A DNA stretch of 42,308 nt from Desulfuromonas sp. GTDB lineage: Bacteria > Desulfobacterota > Desulfuromonadia > Desulfuromonadales > Geothermobacteraceae. Numbering within the stretch: the first letter of the stretch is position 1; each line of letters starts with the position of its first letter. Below are positions 25,886 through 33,900 of the stretch, piece after piece. The stretch is taken from positions 1-42,308 of the forward strand of contig PKUA01000072.1 of assembly GCA_002868905.1 (NCBI GenBank), written 5' to 3'. The notes beneath the pieces were generated by a model, which was not told the origin of the DNA, ran no database searches, and was given only the letters and a program-made list of their open reading frames with translations. The translations under genes and the position numbers were made by a program.

Positions 25886-27019
25886 TCAGGCGGTTCTGAT
25901 GACCTCGACCAGCAGCTCGGTAACCTTGGTAAGATCTGCCACTGAGACCGATTCTTCACTTGTGTGGACATTCTCCATTCCGGAAGAGAGTATGACAGTT
26001 TCAATGCCGGAATCGTTGAAGATGTTGGCATCGGAACCTCCACCGGCCATGGAGACTTTAAGCGGTTGTCCAAGTGTAGTCGCCGCTGCAGAGATGAGCT
26101 GAATGACAGGGGCATCCTTTTTGACATGCATGATCGGATAATCGGCAGTAACCTCGGTCGTGATGACAGGTTTGATCGTTTTCCCGTCTATCACTTTTGT
26201 CATCTCCCTGGCGGCAGCCTCCAGACTATGCAGAATATGATCGGTCTGCATCTGCAACTTTTCCCCATCGTGACTTCGCACTTCCCCTGCCAAGACAACC
26301 TGGCGGGGGACGATGTTGGATGCCTGGCCGCCTTCAATCAGGCCGATATTGGCCGTTGTTTCCTCGTCGATACGACCGAGACGCATCCGTGAAATCGCTC
26401 TCGCGGCAGTTTCAATCGCGGAGACTCCTTTTTCCGGCGCCATGCCTGCATGGGCCTCCAAGCCGGTGATGGTGATGCGGAACTTGTTGGCACCGGGGGC
26501 GCGGTAGATCAGCTTTCCGGTACCGTTGGTGTCGAGAGCAATCCCTCTCTTCGATTCGAGGCGATCGCAGTCGAAATGTTTAGCTCCGAGCAGGCCGACC
26601 TCTTCACAGACCGTGATGAGAATTTCGAGGGGAGGGTGGTCGATCCCCTGTTCCCTGACGATTTCCAGGGTCTCGATGATTTCGGTGATCCCGGCCTTGT
26701 CATCGGCTCCGAGGACGGTTTCGCCCGCACTGCGGAAAACACCGTCCACCAGTATGGGCTCGACGCCGAGACAAGGGGTGACAGTGTCCATATGGACCGA
26801 TAGAAGCAGTGGTTCCCCCGGTCGGGTACCCGGGATCTTGATCAGGAGGTTGCCGCTCTCACCGTTAAGCCGCGACGCCGTGTCATCAAATTCGATTGAG
26901 TTGCTGAAGGCCCTGAAACGTTCTGCGAGGTAGTCTGCCATTTCCCCTTCCTGGAAGGGAGGGCTGGCGATACTCGCCTGACGCAGAAATTCTTTGCACA
27001 GCCGTTCTGTATTGACCAT
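25886..27019 (-). CDS. M20-family peptidase, PepT-like
   Basis: A dizinc aminopeptidase of 377 aa related to tripeptidase T. Metal-ligand motifs are in order: SVHMDTV (His and Asp), GADDKAG (bridging Asp), TVCEEVGLLGA (catalytic and ligand Glu), and ALDTNG. A final His is in MENVHTSEESV. The dimerisation (lid) domain starts at about LEAHAGMAPEKG. I start at ATG 27019, which has AAGGGGA upstream; an upstream in-frame codon at 27055 lacks one. It is divergent from the M23 gene, with 228 bp between. Confidence 0.9.
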   Translation of the reverse strand: MVNTERLCKEFLRQASIASPPFQEGEMADYLAERFRAFSNSIEFDDTASRLNGESGNLLIKIPGTRPGEPLLLSVHMDTVTPCLGVEPILVDGVFRSAGETVLGADDKAGITEIIETLEIVREQGIDHPPLEILITVCEEVGLLGAKHFDCDRLESKRGIALDTNGTGKLIYRAPGANKFRITITGLEAHAGMAPEKGVSAIETAARAISRMRLGRIDEETTANIGLIEGGQASNIVPRQVVLAGEVRSHDGEKLQMQTDHILHSLEAAAREMTKVIDGKTIKPVITTEVTADYPIMHVKKDAPVIQLISAAATTLGQPLKVSMAGGGSDANIFNDSGIETVILSSGMENVHTSEESVSVADLTKVTELLVEVIRTA

Positions 27020-27247
27020 TGTATTCCCCTTGGCCGTCCTGTTTGAATCCGTCACCGGCGGTGGGAATCATGGCACGCGGGTGCGGTTCACGGGACGGTA
27101 GCGGAAAAAGCGGAGCAATGCAAGACTGGTTCTGGACAATCCTACCAATCTGTTGATAGCATACGGCGGCCAATCGGGGTTGGTGGTTAACCATTGACCT
27201 GCCCGAGGATTCCGAAAAATACAGCCAGGAAAGAATCGTCAGTAGTC

Positions 27248-28561
27248 GTGAATATTGATCTTTTACCGCCCCGTTCCGGACCTTCTTCCTCACGTCGAGG
27301 CCTTAATGTCAAGCTGTTGGTGTTGTTGACCATTCTGGCGACGGTGCTGGTTTGGTGGTTACTCCCCGCAGAACAACCCTCGGCACCTGTCGCGCAACTG
27401 CCAGCCGAACTTTCTTCCGGTCCGGTTGTGGTTGACCGCACCGTTATCGAAGAAGGTGAGATCGATGCCGGGGCCACCATGACATCTCTTCTCGGCCGTT
27501 TTTTGTCGCCGCAGGATATCTACCTGCTGGATAAACAGGCGAAACCGGTTTTCCCCCTGACCCGGCTCAAGGCAGGCCAGGCTTACCGCCTGAAGCACCT
27601 GGATGAGCAATTTGTTCAGTTCGCATATGATATCGACCAGGATGACATGTTGATTATTGATGCAACCGATGACGGGAGCTTCACGGTTGTTCGTGAACCG
27701 ATTCCTTACACGGTGAGGGTCGATCATATCAAGGGGACCATCCAGAGCAGCCTTTTCGAAGCTGTCACCAGTGTCGGAGAGGAGGCGGAACTTGCTCTCG
27801 CCCTGGCGGATATTTTTGCCTGGGACATCGATTTTATCCTCGACATCCGGGTCGGAGACAGCTTCCAGGCTTTGGTCGAGAAGCGGTTTCGTGATGGAGA
27901 GTGGGCCGGCTACGGGAAGATCCTCGCCGCCGAATTTGTCAACCGCGGCGAACCGTTCAACGCTTTCAGGTTCAAGGATGGCGATCGGTCGACAAGTTAT
28001 TACGATGAGGAGGGGAACAGCGTTCGCAAAGCGTTTTTGAAGGCGCCACTGGCATTTTCCCGCATCTCGAGCGGTTTCAGCATGAAGCGATTTCACCCCA
28101 TTACCAAGACTTGGAAAGCTCATCCCGCTATCGATTATGCGGCTCCGACCGGAACTCCGATCAAGGCCGTCGGTGACGGAACCATCAGCCGGATCGGCTA
28201 TACGCGAGGCAACGGCAACTTTATAGAAATCAGGCATAATAGCAGCTACAAGACGATTTATCTGCACATGAGCCGGTTTTCCAGGAAAATGAAAAAGGGG
28301 CGGCGGGTCGACCAGGGTCAGGTGATCGGATTTGTCGGCAGTACCGGGTTGGCAACCGGCCCCCATCTCTGTTTTAGAATGTATCGCAACGGCTCTCCGG
28401 TCAATCCGACCCGGATCAAATCACCTTCGGTCGCGCCGGTCTCCGGGGAGAACCGGGAGAAGTTTCTTGAGACAATCAGAGCATGGGTCGCCCGCTTCAG
28501 TGTTCCGACTCAGGAGGGACAGGCATCTGCTCAACAGCCGGAATCGGTTCATTTGAATTGA
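27248..28561 (+). CDS. M23-family peptidoglycan endopeptidase with His-x-Cys zinc site
   Basis: A membrane-anchored LytM-type hydrolase of about 437 aa. A single helix near the N terminus (VKLLVLLTILATVLVWWLL) is followed by an OapA/LysM-like region and the LytM domain. His292 and Asp296 (HPAIDYAAPTGTP) and His373 (GPHLCF) are the expected ligands, but the position of the second His of the HxH motif is Cys375. Cys can bind zinc, so activity is plausible; I recall a similar His-x-Cys in some other M23 proteins. The start is uncertain: GTG 27248 with AGGAAAG 13 bp upstream, or TTG 27194. Confidence 0.87.
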   Translation: MNIDLLPPRSGPSSSRRGLNVKLLVLLTILATVLVWWLLPAEQPSAPVAQLPAELSSGPVVVDRTVIEEGEIDAGATMTSLLGRFLSPQDIYLLDKQAKPVFPLTRLKAGQAYRLKHLDEQFVQFAYDIDQDDMLIIDATDDGSFTVVREPIPYTVRVDHIKGTIQSSLFEAVTSVGEEAELALALADIFAWDIDFILDIRVGDSFQALVEKRFRDGEWAGYGKILAAEFVNRGEPFNAFRFKDGDRSTSYYDEEGNSVRKAFLKAPLAFSRISSGFSMKRFHPITKTWKAHPAIDYAAPTGTPIKAVGDGTISRIGYTRGNGNFIEIRHNSSYKTIYLHMSRFSRKMKKGRRVDQGQVIGFVGSTGLATGPHLCFRMYRNGSPVNPTRIKSPSVAPVSGENREKFLETIRAWVARFSVPTQEGQASAQQPESVHLN

Positions 28562-28706: not shown

Positions 28707-29834
28707 ATGGAGAAAATCGGGCAAGTTCTGCTGCGCGAAAAACTGATTACCAAAGACCACCTGAAAAAAGCGCTTGATCACCAGGCTCTATTCGGCGGGC
28801 GTATCGGGAGCCAGTTGGTTGAAATGGGAGCCCTCGAGGAGGAACAACTCGGGCAAGTTCTTGGAAAAAGATACCGAATCCCTTACGTGGTATCCAAACA
28901 ACTCGCGAAAGTCCCCGAAGATATATTGCCTTTGCTGTCGGTCGAGCTGGCTGCCAAGTATTCTGCCATTCCCCTGAAACTGCAAAAGCAGAAATTGTTT
29001 CTCGCCATGATCGACCCCACCGATTTTCGCGCGGCCGAGGAGATCGGTTTCCGGACCGGTTACGCCGTCAATCCTGTCGTCGCGCCGGAAACCGCCATGC
29101 TGACCCACCTGGAGAGGTATTACGATATTGCCAGGAAGAAGCTGGGTATCAGCATTTCCGATGTTCCGACGCCGGCTCTCCCCAAGGAAAAAGTTGAAGT
29201 CAAACCAAAAGAAGACAAGGCGGTCTGGCTCGGGGGTGAAGATTCGGACGAGGTGCTTGATGCGTGGGACAAAAAGCTGCTGGAGGAGCGGCTGCAGCAA
29301 ACACAAAAGGCAAAGCAGGAACGTCCGTCTGCCGAGGAGGCACCGCAGCCGACAACCATGGGGGGGCGTTTGTCCGCCTGCCCCGACAGGGATGCTGTCG
29401 CCGGGGTTGTGACCGACTATATTGCCAAAGAGTTTCGGCGTGGGGGGCTGTTTCTGATCCGGCGCAACGTAGCGTGCGGCTGGTCGGCAGTCTTCGAAGG
29501 GTCGCCGGTTCCCGAGTTTGAAAATTTTGAGGTCAACCTGTCCGAACCGTCTGTGCTGCAGACAGTAGCGATGTCCGGGCAGGTCTATTTCGGACCCGTT
29601 CCACCGTCGCCGGCCAACCAGCGGTTGTTCAAGATTCTTGGAGAAGATATGCCGGATATGGTCCTCGCTGCTCCGGTCATTGCCGGGCAGAAGGCCCTTG
29701 CCGTCATCGTTGTCGCCAACAGGAAGCTCAACCTGCAGGCCTACGTCGAGGAGATCGGCAAACTGTCCCACCTGCTCGCAATGTCGATCGAGATCCTTAT
29801 TCTACAGAACAAGCTGAGTTCGATGGACCTCTAG
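28707..29834 (+). CDS. Stand-alone MshEN (GspE N-terminal) protein with a GAF-like C terminus
   Basis: A 375-aa protein. Residues 2-56 carry two tandem MshEN motifs, KIGQVLLREKLITKDHLKK... and RIGSQLVEMGALEEEQLGQ..., separated by exactly five residues, the arrangement that binds c-di-GMP in MshE. The rest of the GspE N-terminal domain runs to about 150 (IPYVVSKQLAKVPEDILPLL, LAMIDPTDF). The T2SS/T4P ATPase that normally follows is absent. A charged linker (about 165-220) leads to a GAF-like domain (about 226-375, FLIRRNVACGWSAVF, AAPVIAGQKALAVIVVANR). GGAGG precedes ATG 28707; the DUF362 gene follows after 13 bp. Confidence 0.86.
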   Translation: MEKIGQVLLREKLITKDHLKKALDHQALFGGRIGSQLVEMGALEEEQLGQVLGKRYRIPYVVSKQLAKVPEDILPLLSVELAAKYSAIPLKLQKQKLFLAMIDPTDFRAAEEIGFRTGYAVNPVVAPETAMLTHLERYYDIARKKLGISISDVPTPALPKEKVEVKPKEDKAVWLGGEDSDEVLDAWDKKLLEERLQQTQKAKQERPSAEEAPQPTTMGGRLSACPDRDAVAGVVTDYIAKEFRRGGLFLIRRNVACGWSAVFEGSPVPEFENFEVNLSEPSVLQTVAMSGQVYFGPVPPSPANQRLFKILGEDMPDMVLAAPVIAGQKALAVIVVANRKLNLQAYVEEIGKLSHLLAMSIEILILQNKLSSMDL

Positions 29835-29847
29835 CCGGGGAACCCCG

Positions 29848-30690
29848 ATGCCGATTTCGTGTCACCTGGAACCTTTTTCCGATTATGCCACGGCCATTCC
29901 GAAAGCCCTGGACGCCATCGGTGCCGCAAAAATCCTGGCAGAGCAGTCTCGTATCCTGATTAAACCGAATTTGGTGAAGGATTCCCCGCCGCCGGTCACC
30001 ACGGCGCTGCCATGTGCCGCTGCCTTGATCCGTTATCTGCGCGATCGGACGAAGGCGCAGTTGATTCTTGCAGAGGGGAGCGGTGAAAATATGCTCTCGA
30101 CCATCCAGATCTTCGATCGCCAAGGCTATTTCGCCCTGGCAGAGGAATACGATCTCAAACTGATTGATCTGAACCAGGCGCCGTTGCTCAAGCTTGCCAG
30201 GGATGATTGCAAGGTTTTTCCGGAAATCTGGTTGCCGAAACTGGTGATGGAATCATTTATCATCTCTCTCGCTCCCCTTAAGGCGCACTCTCTTTCCGAG
30301 GTGACCCTCTCGATGAAAAACATGATCGGTTGCGCACCGCCGAGTCATTACCAGCGGGGGGGGCACTGGAAGAAGTCGGCCTTCCATCGCCAGATTCATC
30401 AATCGATTTTCGAACTGAACCTGCATCGAAAACCTGATCTGGCCATTGTCGATGCCAAGGATGGACTCAGTGAATATCATCTCGGGGGACCTCTGTGTGA
30501 TCCTCCTCCGAACCGAATCGTGGCCGGTTTCGACCCTGTGGCGGTCGATGCCGCAGGGGCAACCCTGCTGGGTCGTGACTGGCGGCAGGTCGAACATATC
30601 CAACTGGCCGACGGAGTGCTCGGTTCGGCTGCGGACGGAGAAAAAACCTGCGCCATGAACGGGAGTTCGCCGACCCGAAGTCTTCACTGA
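29848..30690 (+). CDS. DUF362-domain protein
   Basis: A 280-aa protein opening with the DUF362 pattern: ILIKPNLVKDSPPPVTT, LILAEGSGE, FIISLAPLKAHSLSEVTLSMKNMIG and VAGFDPVAVDAAGATLLG are all typical. The ferredoxin 4Fe-4S module often fused to DUF362 is absent here. No enzyme activity is established for the domain that I can state with confidence. It starts 13 bp after the MshEN-GAF gene with CGGGGA upstream and stops 1 bp before the AcpH gene's TTG start. Confidence 0.87.
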   Translation: MPISCHLEPFSDYATAIPKALDAIGAAKILAEQSRILIKPNLVKDSPPPVTTALPCAAALIRYLRDRTKAQLILAEGSGENMLSTIQIFDRQGYFALAEEYDLKLIDLNQAPLLKLARDDCKVFPEIWLPKLVMESFIISLAPLKAHSLSEVTLSMKNMIGCAPPSHYQRGGHWKKSAFHRQIHQSIFELNLHRKPDLAIVDAKDGLSEYHLGGPLCDPPPNRIVAGFDPVAVDAAGATLLGRDWRQVEHIQLADGVLGSAADGEKTCAMNGSSPTRSLH

Positions 30691-30691
30691 T

Positions 30692-31291
30692 TTGAATTAC
30701 CTCGTTCATCTCTACCTGTCTGATCCCGATCCGGAAGTCCGACTCGGCAACCTTGTCGGAGATTTTGTCAAAGGGCGCCTGGAGGGGAGAGGTTTCAGCG
30801 TCGGTTTTTTGCGCGGCCTGCGGCAGCATAGGGCCGTGGATTCCTTCTCCCACACCAGTCAGGCCGTTCGCAACAGCAAGCGGAGACTCCGGGCCCAATT
30901 CAGAATCTACAAGCCGATCCTTGTCGACATCTACTACGACCACCTGCTCGCAGCTCATTGGCAGGAGTTCCATCGTCAACCGCTTGTTGAGTTCGCTGCA
31001 GATACTTACCGTCTTTTCGAATTGTATGCGGATATCCTGCCTGTTGAGTTCAGGTTGGTGGCAAAACGGATGGCTTCCAGGGACTGGTTGTCATCTTATG
31101 CCGATCTCTCGGTTGTTCCGCTGGTTCTGCAACGAATTGGGGAACGGGTCAGGGGAGGGGAGATTTTGCGTAAAGGTGCTTGTGACCTGGAATGGCAGTA
31201 TCCGGAACTGCTTTCGGACTGCCGCCGGTTTCTCAAGGATGCACGAAGTTGGCTTGATGCCGAAATGGGAGTCGGTCAGGAAGAGCTATGA
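30692..31291 (+). CDS. acpH: Acyl-carrier-protein phosphodiesterase-like protein (AcpH/DUF479)
   Basis: A 199-aa protein of the AcpH family, which removes the phosphopantetheine arm from acyl carrier protein. MNYLVHLYLS, LGNLVGDFVKG, GLRQHRAVDSFSHT and IYYDHLLAAHW are the family signatures and give the HD-type metal ligands. The conserved first residues start at TTG 30692, one base after the DUF362 stop; no ATG fits, so I accept the rare start and infer translational coupling. The last 16 bp overlap the convergent FAD oxidoreductase gene. Confidence 0.88.
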   Translation: MNYLVHLYLSDPDPEVRLGNLVGDFVKGRLEGRGFSVGFLRGLRQHRAVDSFSHTSQAVRNSKRRLRAQFRIYKPILVDIYYDHLLAAHWQEFHRQPLVEFAADTYRLFELYADILPVEFRLVAKRMASRDWLSSYADLSVVPLVLQRIGERVRGGEILRKGACDLEWQYPELLSDCRRFLKDARSWLDAEMGVGQEEL

Positions 31292-32397
31292 GGCTGGTTC
31301 GTTTCTCCACATCGTTGGTACTCCTGCATGAAACGACGATCGATGTAGTCCTTGATTAAAAACGGGATTCGTCCCGACCAGGTCAGGCTGTGCCAGCGGA
31401 GCAGGCCTTGCTGTCGGCCCAGATTGAATATCAGCAGGAAGTGGTTTTGGGGTCGAAAAGGGGTTAATTGCTCTCCCTCAAGGGCCGCGAGCAGATTCCG
31501 GAGAAGAACCGGGCCTTGGCGGACCGCGTAAACCCCGACCCTGGCAAGGTGCCGGTCGGCGAAACTGATACAGTCCCCCCCGCCAAAAATCTCCGGATGA
31601 TCAATCGCCTGAAGAAAGCGGTTGACCAACAAACCGCCGTCCTGACCCGTAGGCAAGTCCGCTTCGGCAAACAGCAATGGAGGCGTAACTCCGGTCGCCA
31701 GCAGGGCACGGTCATAGGGGAGGGCCAGGCCCGATTCGAGGATGGCCTGTCCCCGTTCCAGTTTGGCCAGGCGTTCACCGGCATGCAGTCGGACCGGAAG
31801 GGCGTCCAGCGTACGCTCAACCCGATGACGGATTCCAGCCGGGAAATCGGCAAGAAAAACATTCCCGGCGATCAGGTCGACATGGGCCGAATGCCCGCTT
31901 CCTGACAACCAGCAACCGAGGTTGGCTGCGATTTCCGCTCCCGCCGCTCCCCCGCCAACGACCAGCAGGTTCCGGTCGGTTGCTTGGACACTGCGTCGAA
32001 ATTTGTCCAGGTTTTCAATCGGTTTGACCGTGAAAACCCGGTCTTTGTCAAACTCTCCGGTCGGTAGGCAGACCGACGAGCCAAGGTTGCAGCTGAGAAC
32101 ATCGTAATCGATCCATCCGGAATTTTCCGTGTGGACCTTTCGGGTTCCAGGGTCGATTCCCGTCACCCGATCCCGAACGAAAGTCCCTCCTCCGCGTCGC
32201 GTCAATGTGGCCACATCGAACCGGGTGTGCTCAGGTCGGTAATCTCCTGACAACAGGCCGGGGCCCATGCCGGAGTAGTAATGGAAGTCATCCGCTCCGA
32301 TGACCGTGACGCAATGGCCACGGCGGACAAATTCAGGAATGTTTGTCAGAATCGGCAGGTGGGCGTGACCGGCCCCTGCAAGAACGAGAGTTGCCAT
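31276..32397 (-). CDS. FAD-dependent NAD(P)H oxidoreductase, NDH-2-like
   Basis: A 373-aa two-dinucleotide-domain flavoprotein. The N terminus LVLAGAGHAHLPIL is the FAD GxGxxH variant typical of the oxidoreductases found alone or fused to SelD, rather than of respiratory NDH-2. The second nucleotide site is LLVVGGGAAGAEIA, and IFGGGDCISF is the C-terminal FAD contact. There is no redox-active CxxC and no membrane helix. It lies 60 bp after the radical SAM gene on the same strand. The electron acceptor is unknown. Confidence 0.86.
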   Translation of the reverse strand: MATLVLAGAGHAHLPILTNIPEFVRRGHCVTVIGADDFHYYSGMGPGLLSGDYRPEHTRFDVATLTRRGGGTFVRDRVTGIDPGTRKVHTENSGWIDYDVLSCNLGSSVCLPTGEFDKDRVFTVKPIENLDKFRRSVQATDRNLLVVGGGAAGAEIAANLGCWLSGSGHSAHVDLIAGNVFLADFPAGIRHRVERTLDALPVRLHAGERLAKLERGQAILESGLALPYDRALLATGVTPPLLFAEADLPTGQDGGLLVNRFLQAIDHPEIFGGGDCISFADRHLARVGVYAVRQGPVLLRNLLAALEGEQLTPFRPQNHFLLIFNLGRQQGLLRWHSLTWSGRIPFLIKDYIDRRFMQEYQRCGETNQPHSSS

Positions 32398-32457: not shown

Positions 32458-33798
32458 CTAGGATTCGACAGACTCCTGGATCGGCCAGTCGGTCTGATAG
32501 CCCTCGGGAAAGAAGTTGTCCCGGGTCCTGTTGAAGTAGCCGTATTGGATTCTCGGCACCCTCTGTTTCAGGGTCGTCAGCATGGCTGGGATGCCGATCC
32601 CACGGCCGTCAAGATGAAGGTGGTCCCAGTAGAGCTGGGGATCGAGGCTCAGGTTGCGCATCTGGATCAGGTCGATTTCGGCCGATTCCACCAGCGCGGT
32701 CAAGGCATCAAGCTCGTCTTGACGATCGGTTACACCGGGGAAGACCAGGTAGTTGAGCATGGTGAACAGGCCATTTCGTTTGGCACGATGCAGGGAATCG
32801 ATGACCTGTTCGAATCGGTAGCCCTGCGGTCGGTAGTAGCTGTTGTATCGATCTTCCAACACCGAATTCATCGATACCCGGATCGATTCGATTCCGGACT
32901 CGGCCAATTGGTCGATGGCTTCGGGGATCGATGCGTTGCTGTTGAAATTAATGGTGCCGCGTGCGGTTGTTTTGCGCATGGCTCTAACGGCGTCGCAGAT
33001 GCGATCGGCTTGCAGGATCGGATCCCCTTCACAACCCTGGCCGAAGGAGACAATTGCATTCTCTGCCTTTTCCAGGTGCGGTACGGCAACTTGGCACAGT
33101 TCTTCTATCGATGGGACAAAATTGAGTCGGTCCTGGCTGGCCGGACAACAATCAGATTCCTGCAGGGAAATGCATCCGATACAGCGGGAGTTGCAACTCG
33201 GTGAGGTCGGCAGGGGAGCTTCCCAGCGACCGAAGAATAGGTTCTTGGCAGCGAAACAGTGGTAGTCCAGGGCGCAGCGTGCCAGCTGTTCGTAGAGGCG
33301 GTTGTCGGGGAACCGGGCAAGACGTTTACGGACCAGGGGGTCGAGCTTTTGATCATCAAAATGCTCAGGTTGCCACTGGCGGTTGCGATCGACCTGGATG
33401 GCGGCGCAGTAAAATCTTTCTTCTTCGACGCACCAGCCGACAGCGGTGTACGACCAGAGAGGCAAGGTGACCTTTTTTTTCGAATAATCGGCTGCTGGAA
33501 GCAGGGTGCGGGTATAACCGGGGGTGAGAAAGGCCGAGACCGCATGCAGTGGCCCCCCGCCCCAGGAACGGGGCATCTGGTCTCGGCAGACCAGGTTGCC
33601 GCTTGCCGGATCGAATCCGAGCGGCGGTGTGTTCGGGATGGAAAAGAGCCGACTCCCTTCCGGTAGAGGGATCAGTTCAGCTGGCGCAGGGACACACGGG
33701 GTCGCACCGTTGAAGCCGGCCAACAACAAGTCGGGGTATTCAAATACTTCCCCCTGCTCGTCCGCGACGACCGCCAGGATGGTTCGTTGGTTACTCAT
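32458..33798 (-). CDS. Radical SAM protein with a long N-terminal domain
   Basis: A 446-aa enzyme. The 4Fe-4S motif is CNSRCIGC at residues 202-209, with SFGQGCEGDP and IRVSMNSVLEDRYNSYYRP downstream as the SAM-binding strand regions of the barrel. About 190 residues come before the cluster (LFSIPNTPPLGFDPASGNLV, VSAFLTPGYTRTLLPA), a domain I remember only from uncharacterised relatives in anaerobes. A Cys-Cys pair follows the cluster motif. No SPASM cluster is evident. The substrate is unknown. ATG 33798 is conservative; GTG 33816 has a better-placed AGGA. Probably co-transcribed with the FAD gene downstream. Confidence 0.85.
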   Translation of the reverse strand: MSNQRTILAVVADEQGEVFEYPDLLLAGFNGATPCVPAPAELIPLPEGSRLFSIPNTPPLGFDPASGNLVCRDQMPRSWGGGPLHAVSAFLTPGYTRTLLPAADYSKKKVTLPLWSYTAVGWCVEEERFYCAAIQVDRNRQWQPEHFDDQKLDPLVRKRLARFPDNRLYEQLARCALDYHCFAAKNLFFGRWEAPLPTSPSCNSRCIGCISLQESDCCPASQDRLNFVPSIEELCQVAVPHLEKAENAIVSFGQGCEGDPILQADRICDAVRAMRKTTARGTINFNSNASIPEAIDQLAESGIESIRVSMNSVLEDRYNSYYRPQGYRFEQVIDSLHRAKRNGLFTMLNYLVFPGVTDRQDELDALTALVESAEIDLIQMRNLSLDPQLYWDHLHLDGRGIGIPAMLTTLKQRVPRIQYGYFNRTRDNFFPEGYQTDWPIQESVES

Positions 33799-33900
33799 GG
33801 GAAGGAAAGATAGCACAGAGCCCAATCCTGAACAATTGTCATTGCGAATTGATCTGTGAACATCCGTTTTCGACCATCGGTAGGCGAGGATTCCGAAATC

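Follow-up and report, generated by a model that had tools for sequence, protein, structure and literature searches.

An MshEN-GAF protein in a gene unit with AcpH and an M23/LytM-type protein in Desulfuromonas: a candidate cyclic-dinucleotide signalling adaptor

We analysed a 42,308-nucleotide stretch of DNA from Desulfuromonas sp. (contig PKUA01000072.1 of assembly GCA_002868905.1, positions 1 to 42,308 of the forward strand; the window, at its full length), in which the gene at 28707..29834 on the forward strand encodes a 375-residue protein with an N-terminal MshEN domain and a GAF-like C-terminal domain (MshEN-GAF), as judged from its open reading frame, its domain matches and its whole-length orthologs. 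Our preferred reading, to which we assign a probability of about one half, is that MshEN-GAF is a soluble cytoplasmic cyclic-dinucleotide signalling adaptor that acts on a partner in an envelope and carrier-protein gene unit. What seems to be new here is the combination of MshEN with GAF in a protein whose gene belongs to a unit of fixed order, together with an M23/LytM-type protein and AcpH, a member of the acyl carrier protein (ACP) phosphodiesterase family. In the open-access literature searched we found no paper joining any two of MshEN, ACP phosphodiesterase, peptidase M23 and DUF362, and the excerpts available of PMC12943098 and PMC10519070 (papers are cited from excerpts throughout) contain no MshEN-GAF fusion.

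MshEN domain and predicted ligand site

The 375-residue protein matches the Pfam MshEN model PF05157 at 65.7 bits (cut-off 23.1) and the NCBIfam model of the MshE-type cyclic di-GMP (c-di-GMP) motif, NF053729, at 49 bits (cut-off 38) over residues 3-54. A phmmer search of the PDB with residues 1-150 returned PilF, PilB and MshE (5htl, E-value 9.2e-13), over the MshEN domain. Alignment to MshE placed motif I at residues 3-26 (28713..28784) and motif II at residues 32-55 (28800..28871), and the PF05157 match placed the MshEN_C subdomain at residues 56-142 (28872..29132), all on the forward strand. The spacer, residues 27-31, has the exact five-residue length reported in a preliminary description of this locus made from the sequence alone. 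The window protein shares with MshE of Vibrio cholerae (5HTL; PMC5013675) two 24-residue motifs, the five-residue spacer and most ligand contacts, and differs from it by the missing ATPase of type II secretion systems (T2SS) and type IV pili (T4P), by its GAF-like C-terminus and by the substitutions R9K, G18K and Q61R. The missing ATPase, also noted in the preliminary description, was borne out by our searches: the T2SSE ATPase domain (PF00437) has no match in the protein, and the PilB model aligns over 1-142 of 564 only. It is no novelty in itself, having been published already (Wang 2016, PMC5013675), with PA3740, M. xanthus FrgA and Bd2402 as MshEN proteins outside the pilus and secretion ATPases. 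In these three, MshEN is likewise fused to other or uncharacterised domains; PA3740 and FrgA are likened to the window protein by description only, and Bd2402 differs in being a response regulator.

Residue numbering and contact positions were taken from MshE (PMC5013675), and we scored R9, L10, G11, L25, L29, Q32, R38, L39, G40, L54, L58 and Q61. In motif I, K3, I4, G5, K12, L19, L23 and Q26 of the window protein correspond to R9, L10, G11, G18, L25, L29 and Q32 of MshE; in motif II, R32, I33, G34, G41, L48, L52 and R55 correspond to R38, L39, G40, G47, L54, L58 and Q61. Of the 12 contacts on which the free-standing c-di-GMP receptor proposed at first sight would depend, 11 are kept or conservatively changed; Q61, which belongs to the pair of Gln residues that contact phosphate, is replaced by Arg55.

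We then compared the protein across a set of 58 genomes, the window's own (G000) and 57 relatives, 49 of which carry AcpH (G and f numbers denote genomes and families of the set, L numbers loci). Because 24 other genomes gave proteins that align over the whole length, at 31-39% identity, the MshEN-GAF architecture is not a chance arrangement. Across the resulting 25 rows (alignment A1, window included), the positions of G11, L29, Q32, G40 and L58 are conserved in all 25 and that of L25 in 24; the R9 position holds Lys or Arg in 24/25 and the R38 position Arg or Lys in 25/25. The Q61 position is occupied by Lys in 16 rows, Arg in three, Gln in three, Leu in two and Ala in one. In a 29-row set, Gln was found there in none of the 23 AcpH-linked rows and in three of the six unlinked ones; these three come from one clade or family, and therefore perhaps record one event. 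A sister MshEN-GAF group with the same C-terminus has R9, G11 and Q32 replaced by Thr, Leu and Arg in 8/8 rows, some of them near-copies; the tree unites all eight with good support. A copy of this group is present in the window's own genome (L004), and sister paralogs with the motif I contacts lost are found at L105:4221-5270 of that genome and at seven other loci. Set against this loss, the retention of contacts in MshEN-GAF suggests that the site is maintained by selection.

Several observations run counter to a ligand-binding adaptor. The published relaxed MshEN motif is fitted by motif II alone, motif I of the window protein missing it, with Lys12 at the place of MshE Gly18. Of 29 aligned orthologs, 26 lack Gln at the Q61 position, the window protein among them. 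Thermus PilF differs from MshEN-GAF in carrying tandem MshEN domains on an ATPase; its non-binding domain GSPII-A shares with the window protein an Arg as the last residue of motif II, and Arg to Gln was among the changes required to restore binding (PMC12002112). MshEN could thus be a degenerate sensor, a structural or protein-binding module that does not bind c-di-GMP, with the GAF-like domain sensing or dimerising instead. Besides R55, this explanation draws on K12 at the Gly18 turn, on the long branch (1.47) of the window row in the MshEN-GAF tree and on the sister group of the same architecture, and we judge it doubtful rather than negligible. It has to accommodate the hydrophobic contacts, both contact Gly residues, Q26 and the basic first residues of the motifs, all kept or conservatively changed, and the binding that remains in PilF after one Gln to Glu change: GSPII-B, which shares with the window protein the Lys at the first residue of motif I (the R9 position), binds c-di-GMP at 6 nM, and its Q218E variant, altered at the second Gln, still binds at 460 nM (PMC11731258). 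As a control, PilB of the window's own genome (L001 row) likewise carries Lys at the Gly18 position but keeps Gln at Q61. Since Q61 is the one contact lost, the others being retained or conservatively substituted, c-di-GMP binding by MshEN-GAF appears plausible, and not more than that.

The altered, asymmetric site might alternatively bind 3',3'-cyclic GMP-AMP (3',3'-cGAMP) rather than c-di-GMP. MshE itself binds cGAMP weakly (PMC5013675), cGAMP signalling has been described in Geobacter (PMC6456294, PMC8835794), to which this genome is presumably akin, and the last residue is not the same in the two half-sites. However, that residue touches ribose and phosphate, not the base (PMC5013675), and the base-reading backbone Gly pair is unchanged, which makes a switch of ligand highly improbable. 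In favour of c-di-GMP sensing, the window's own genome contains 16 GGDEF matches, two of them pieces of one frame. It also has 15 class-I c-di-GMP (GEMM-I) riboswitch matches above the gathering score (for example C65:254-330 and C17:11616-12549), three of which lie within 1 kb on C17; some could be of the cGAMP type.

The C-terminal GAF-like domain extends over approximately residues 215-374 (29349..29828, forward strand), as delimited by GAF matches of orthologs and by the match of a C-terminal profile (A3, in which the window protein is itself one of the rows) at 29349-29825. The GAF-like character named in the preliminary description was found to be weak in the window protein (Pfam GAF_2 at 13.5 bits against a cut-off of 28.6, E-value 0.086) and better in its orthologs, of which, at E-values up to 0.1, 15/25 match GAF_2 and 9/25 match GAF, with a best E-value of 9.3e-7. 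The Pfam GAF cut-off was just exceeded by one of ten scored proteins (L057, 22.5 against 22.4). Twelve residues do not vary across the 25 rows (R228, G258, W259, F271, L278, S282, L284, G296, N304, P323, L364 and K369, numbered as in the window protein). The profile check that had been suggested thus gave GAF and GAF_2 matches in orthologs but no GAF structure in the PDB, where the C-terminal profile had one match at an E-value of 0.34, taken as chance; an AlphaFold2 model of MshEN-GAF from its single sequence reached a predicted local distance difference test score (pLDDT) of 36.8 and a predicted TM-score (pTM) of 0.23, and both results count on the opposing side. Profile A3 also matches DUF4388 proteins in the window's own genome (G000 C4 and C22) and in others, so the GAF-like C-terminus is a shared module. 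These proteins, whose DUF4388 we take to be the PATAN domain, differ from MshEN-GAF by that N-terminus and, in some, by a receiver domain. Two with the same C-terminus are encoded in the own genome at L106:6287-8104 and L107:5489-7219, and one of these two genes adjoins a T2SSE-family ATPase. Among 197 genomes sampled from the phylum, the GAF-like C-terminal domain was found in 23.

A gene unit of fixed order and its distribution

Directly downstream of MshEN-GAF lie, on the same strand, genes for a 280-residue DUF362 protein (29848..30690; PF04015 at 137 bits, cut-off 24) and for the 199-residue AcpH (30692..31291; PF04336 at 184.8 bits). The gaps of 13 bp and 1 bp, first reported in the preliminary description, were reproduced with the reading frames at the same positions, and the three genes may be co-transcribed. 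We examined the 49 AcpH loci by tblastn, covering the same strand within 7 kb upstream and requiring at least 45% identity for DUF362. An M23/LytM-type protein was found upstream of AcpH at 36 loci, MshEN-GAF at 30, a tetratricopeptide repeat (TPR) protein at 13, a small lipoprotein at 12 and DUF362 at seven; the lipoprotein has no Pfam match and takes its name from an N-terminal lipobox-like sequence, recognised by reading. The order M23, MshEN-GAF, lipoprotein, DUF362, TPR, AcpH was not violated once in the 43 loci that hold another unit gene besides AcpH, and six loci hold none (G005, G029, G035, G037, G038 and G046). Contigs end close upstream of AcpH in G015, G029 and G044. Among the MshEN matches listed, at least 30 of the 49 genomes have MshEN-GAF on the strand of AcpH and no more than 2.3 kb upstream of it, and in at least 15 of the 30 linked genomes the ends of the two matches are no more than 100 bp apart.

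The trio of MshEN-GAF, DUF362 and AcpH did not stand as a conserved unit, being found together in only six of the 49 AcpH-bearing genomes (G000, G002 and G004 of f1, G047 of f5, and G034 and G042 of f17). No further gene was detected among the three in G000, G034 and G042; a lipoprotein gene lies among them in G002 and G004, and lipoprotein and TPR genes in G047. The own genome holds M23, MshEN-GAF, DUF362 and AcpH of the unit, and G001, from the window's family, M23, lipoprotein, DUF362 and AcpH, with no MshEN-GAF there. At least 47% identical DUF362 orthologs occur in 17/58 genomes, seven of them upstream of AcpH. MshEN-GAF orthologs are spread across the order. A tree built from 46 MshEN-GAF rows covers 23 of the 30 linked genomes and leaves 12 of 43 inner forks open; on it, the AcpH-linked label needs six changes (mean of shuffled labels 15.6; none of 500 as low). 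The unit is probably ancestral in the order, with members lost lineage by lineage. From the gene arrangements we infer that the window trio would be the eroded remainder of the longer unit, piece-by-piece assembly being the alternative.

The distribution likewise holds points on the other side. The complete six-gene order was found in one genome only, G047, whose assembly is 7% contaminated and contains three AcpH matches, and there AcpH is cut by the contig end. In ten genomes M23 precedes AcpH and the stretch available contains no MshEN-GAF match (G001, G007, G010, G021, G024, G027, G043, G052, G053 and G056), so the other unit genes are independent of it; in G007, G027, G043, G052 and G053, M23 is followed by AcpH. 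M23 and MshEN-GAF are separated by approximately 1.2-3.5 kb in G002, G004, G012, G020, G034, G042 and G045. On the other strand, a divergent M20-family gene is present at 41 of the 49 AcpH loci and a radical SAM (S-adenosylmethionine) or oxidoreductase gene at 23; since these genes outside the unit are conserved too, some of the linkage may simply reflect synteny. We therefore considered that the whole arrangement might be a chromosomal block of common descent with no shared function, an explanation with which the coming and going of unit members also agrees. We regard synteny alone as rather unlikely, given the shared strand, the short distances between MshEN-GAF and AcpH in the linked genomes and in the window, the unbroken order and, in three families, a DUF362 gene placed between the two.

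MshEN is typical of the ATPases of T2SS and T4P, and MshEN-GAF could regulate one of these systems, like other MshEN proteins. Outside the order, an MshEN-GAF gene lies behind a GspL-like gene (L092; GspL_C E-value 0.0005, below the Pfam cut-off), and in G018 a GspD gene follows AcpH at a distance of about 3 kb. In contrast, where the best GspN match is on the same contig as the AcpH-linked MshEN-GAF (G016, G017, G022, G023, G036 and G041), more than 140 kb separates the two, and there is no pil or gsp gene among nine proteins around the window locus. We consider such a role improbable; a T2SS link had been tried as the leading explanation and was dropped when the GspN search gave no general linkage.

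Unit partners, proposed mechanism and flanking genes

The first gene of the conserved unit (27194..28561, forward strand; PF01551 at 107.1 bits, TTG start uncertain) encodes the M23/LytM-type protein, which is ShyC/MepM-like and carries a hydrophobic stretch at its N terminus. In LytM, the second His of the HxH motif is a zinc ligand. The window copy keeps the HxxxD motif (HPAID) and has HxC (GPHLCF) in place of HxH. Among 35 AcpH-locus copies (the weak G021 match being left out), 31 read GPHLCF and four GPHLDF (G007, G043, G052 and G053), as against GPHLH[FYW]. Three other M23 proteins of the own genome have HxH, and two more were unreadable by pattern. Instead of a standard endopeptidase, the HxC protein may be a regulator; alternatively, it may be an enzyme in which Cys serves as a zinc ligand.

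The PF04336 match to AcpH spans positions 1-182 of the 183 in the model, and the TTG start agrees with the aligned AcpH rows, which begin at the same Asn. D24, H46, D50, D79, D83 and H84 (D24, H45, D49, D78, D82 and H83 in E. coli numbering) are invariant in 25 rows, comprising E. coli, the window and 23 of 48 other AcpH genomes, with the truncated G006 and G026 copies left out; because these six His/Asp residues are invariant, the window AcpH looks intact. Directly behind MshEN-GAF, AcpH is truncated in f3 (L111:5930-6076 and L114:4516-4671, G006 and G026), apparently a gene on its way to being lost. AcpH cleaves phosphopantetheine off carrier proteins, its cellular role is unclear and it is non-essential in E. 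coli (PMC8557913). A search of a Geobacter transposon-sequencing paper (PMC5585712) found no mention of AcpH, GspE or a peptidase. For DUF362, which belongs to the same Pfam clan as DUF2088/LarA (PMC11770544), the literature searched, again as excerpts, held no assigned function. PDB searches with DUF362 and with AcpH gave no match at E-values up to 10. Selenocysteine in DUF362 was considered and rejected, the stops inside the matches in G011, G013, G042 and G054 being terminal stops.

MshEN domains signal their c-di-GMP state to another module, either one attached to them or that of a partner. In the signalling adaptor that we favour, the MshEN module would most likely still sense c-di-GMP, through an altered site, with Lys or Arg in place of the second phosphate-binding Gln, and the linker and GAF-like domain would relay the bound state by protein-protein contact, no ATPase being driven. 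The likeliest targets would be the unit partners, namely the M23 factor, reached across the membrane, or else AcpH or DUF362 in the cytoplasm. It is tempting to speculate, although we think it a long shot, that a c-di-GMP or cGAMP adaptor couples wall remodelling by the HxC LytM protein to prosthetic-group turnover of ACP on the AcpH side; if true, AcpH would gain a signalling context. A GGDEF-EAL protein acting with an M23/LytM protein is known from RgsP-RgsM of Rhizobiales (PMC6107284); RgsP sits in the membrane and carries GGDEF and EAL domains rather than MshEN, and the pair serves as a precedent only, with no homology implied. The fixed gene order with an MshEN-type sensor offers a testable context for AcpH and DUF362, and the proteins with Gln kept, with Lys or Arg (most rows) and with motif I contacts lost form a natural contrast series for MshEN binding.

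No Rfam RNA reached the gathering score in the window, and its promoter-like sites (three, against 2.2 in shuffles) and terminator-like sites (four, against 5.7) are not clearly more frequent than chance. Divergent from the unit, a PepT-like M20-family peptidase is encoded at 25886..27055 on the reverse strand (TIGR01883 at 317.8 bits, cut-off 274.25). Two convergent neighbours follow AcpH on the reverse strand, a pyridine nucleotide-disulphide oxidoreductase at 31276..32397 (PF07992 at 81.4 bits) and a radical SAM protein at 32458..33825 (PF04055 at 50.8 bits), the latter with no NCBIfam model above its cut-off. Window included, the oxidoreductase is a convergent neighbour at 8/49 AcpH loci and the radical SAM protein at 18/49, and the radical SAM protein is approximately 64-72% identical at other AcpH loci.

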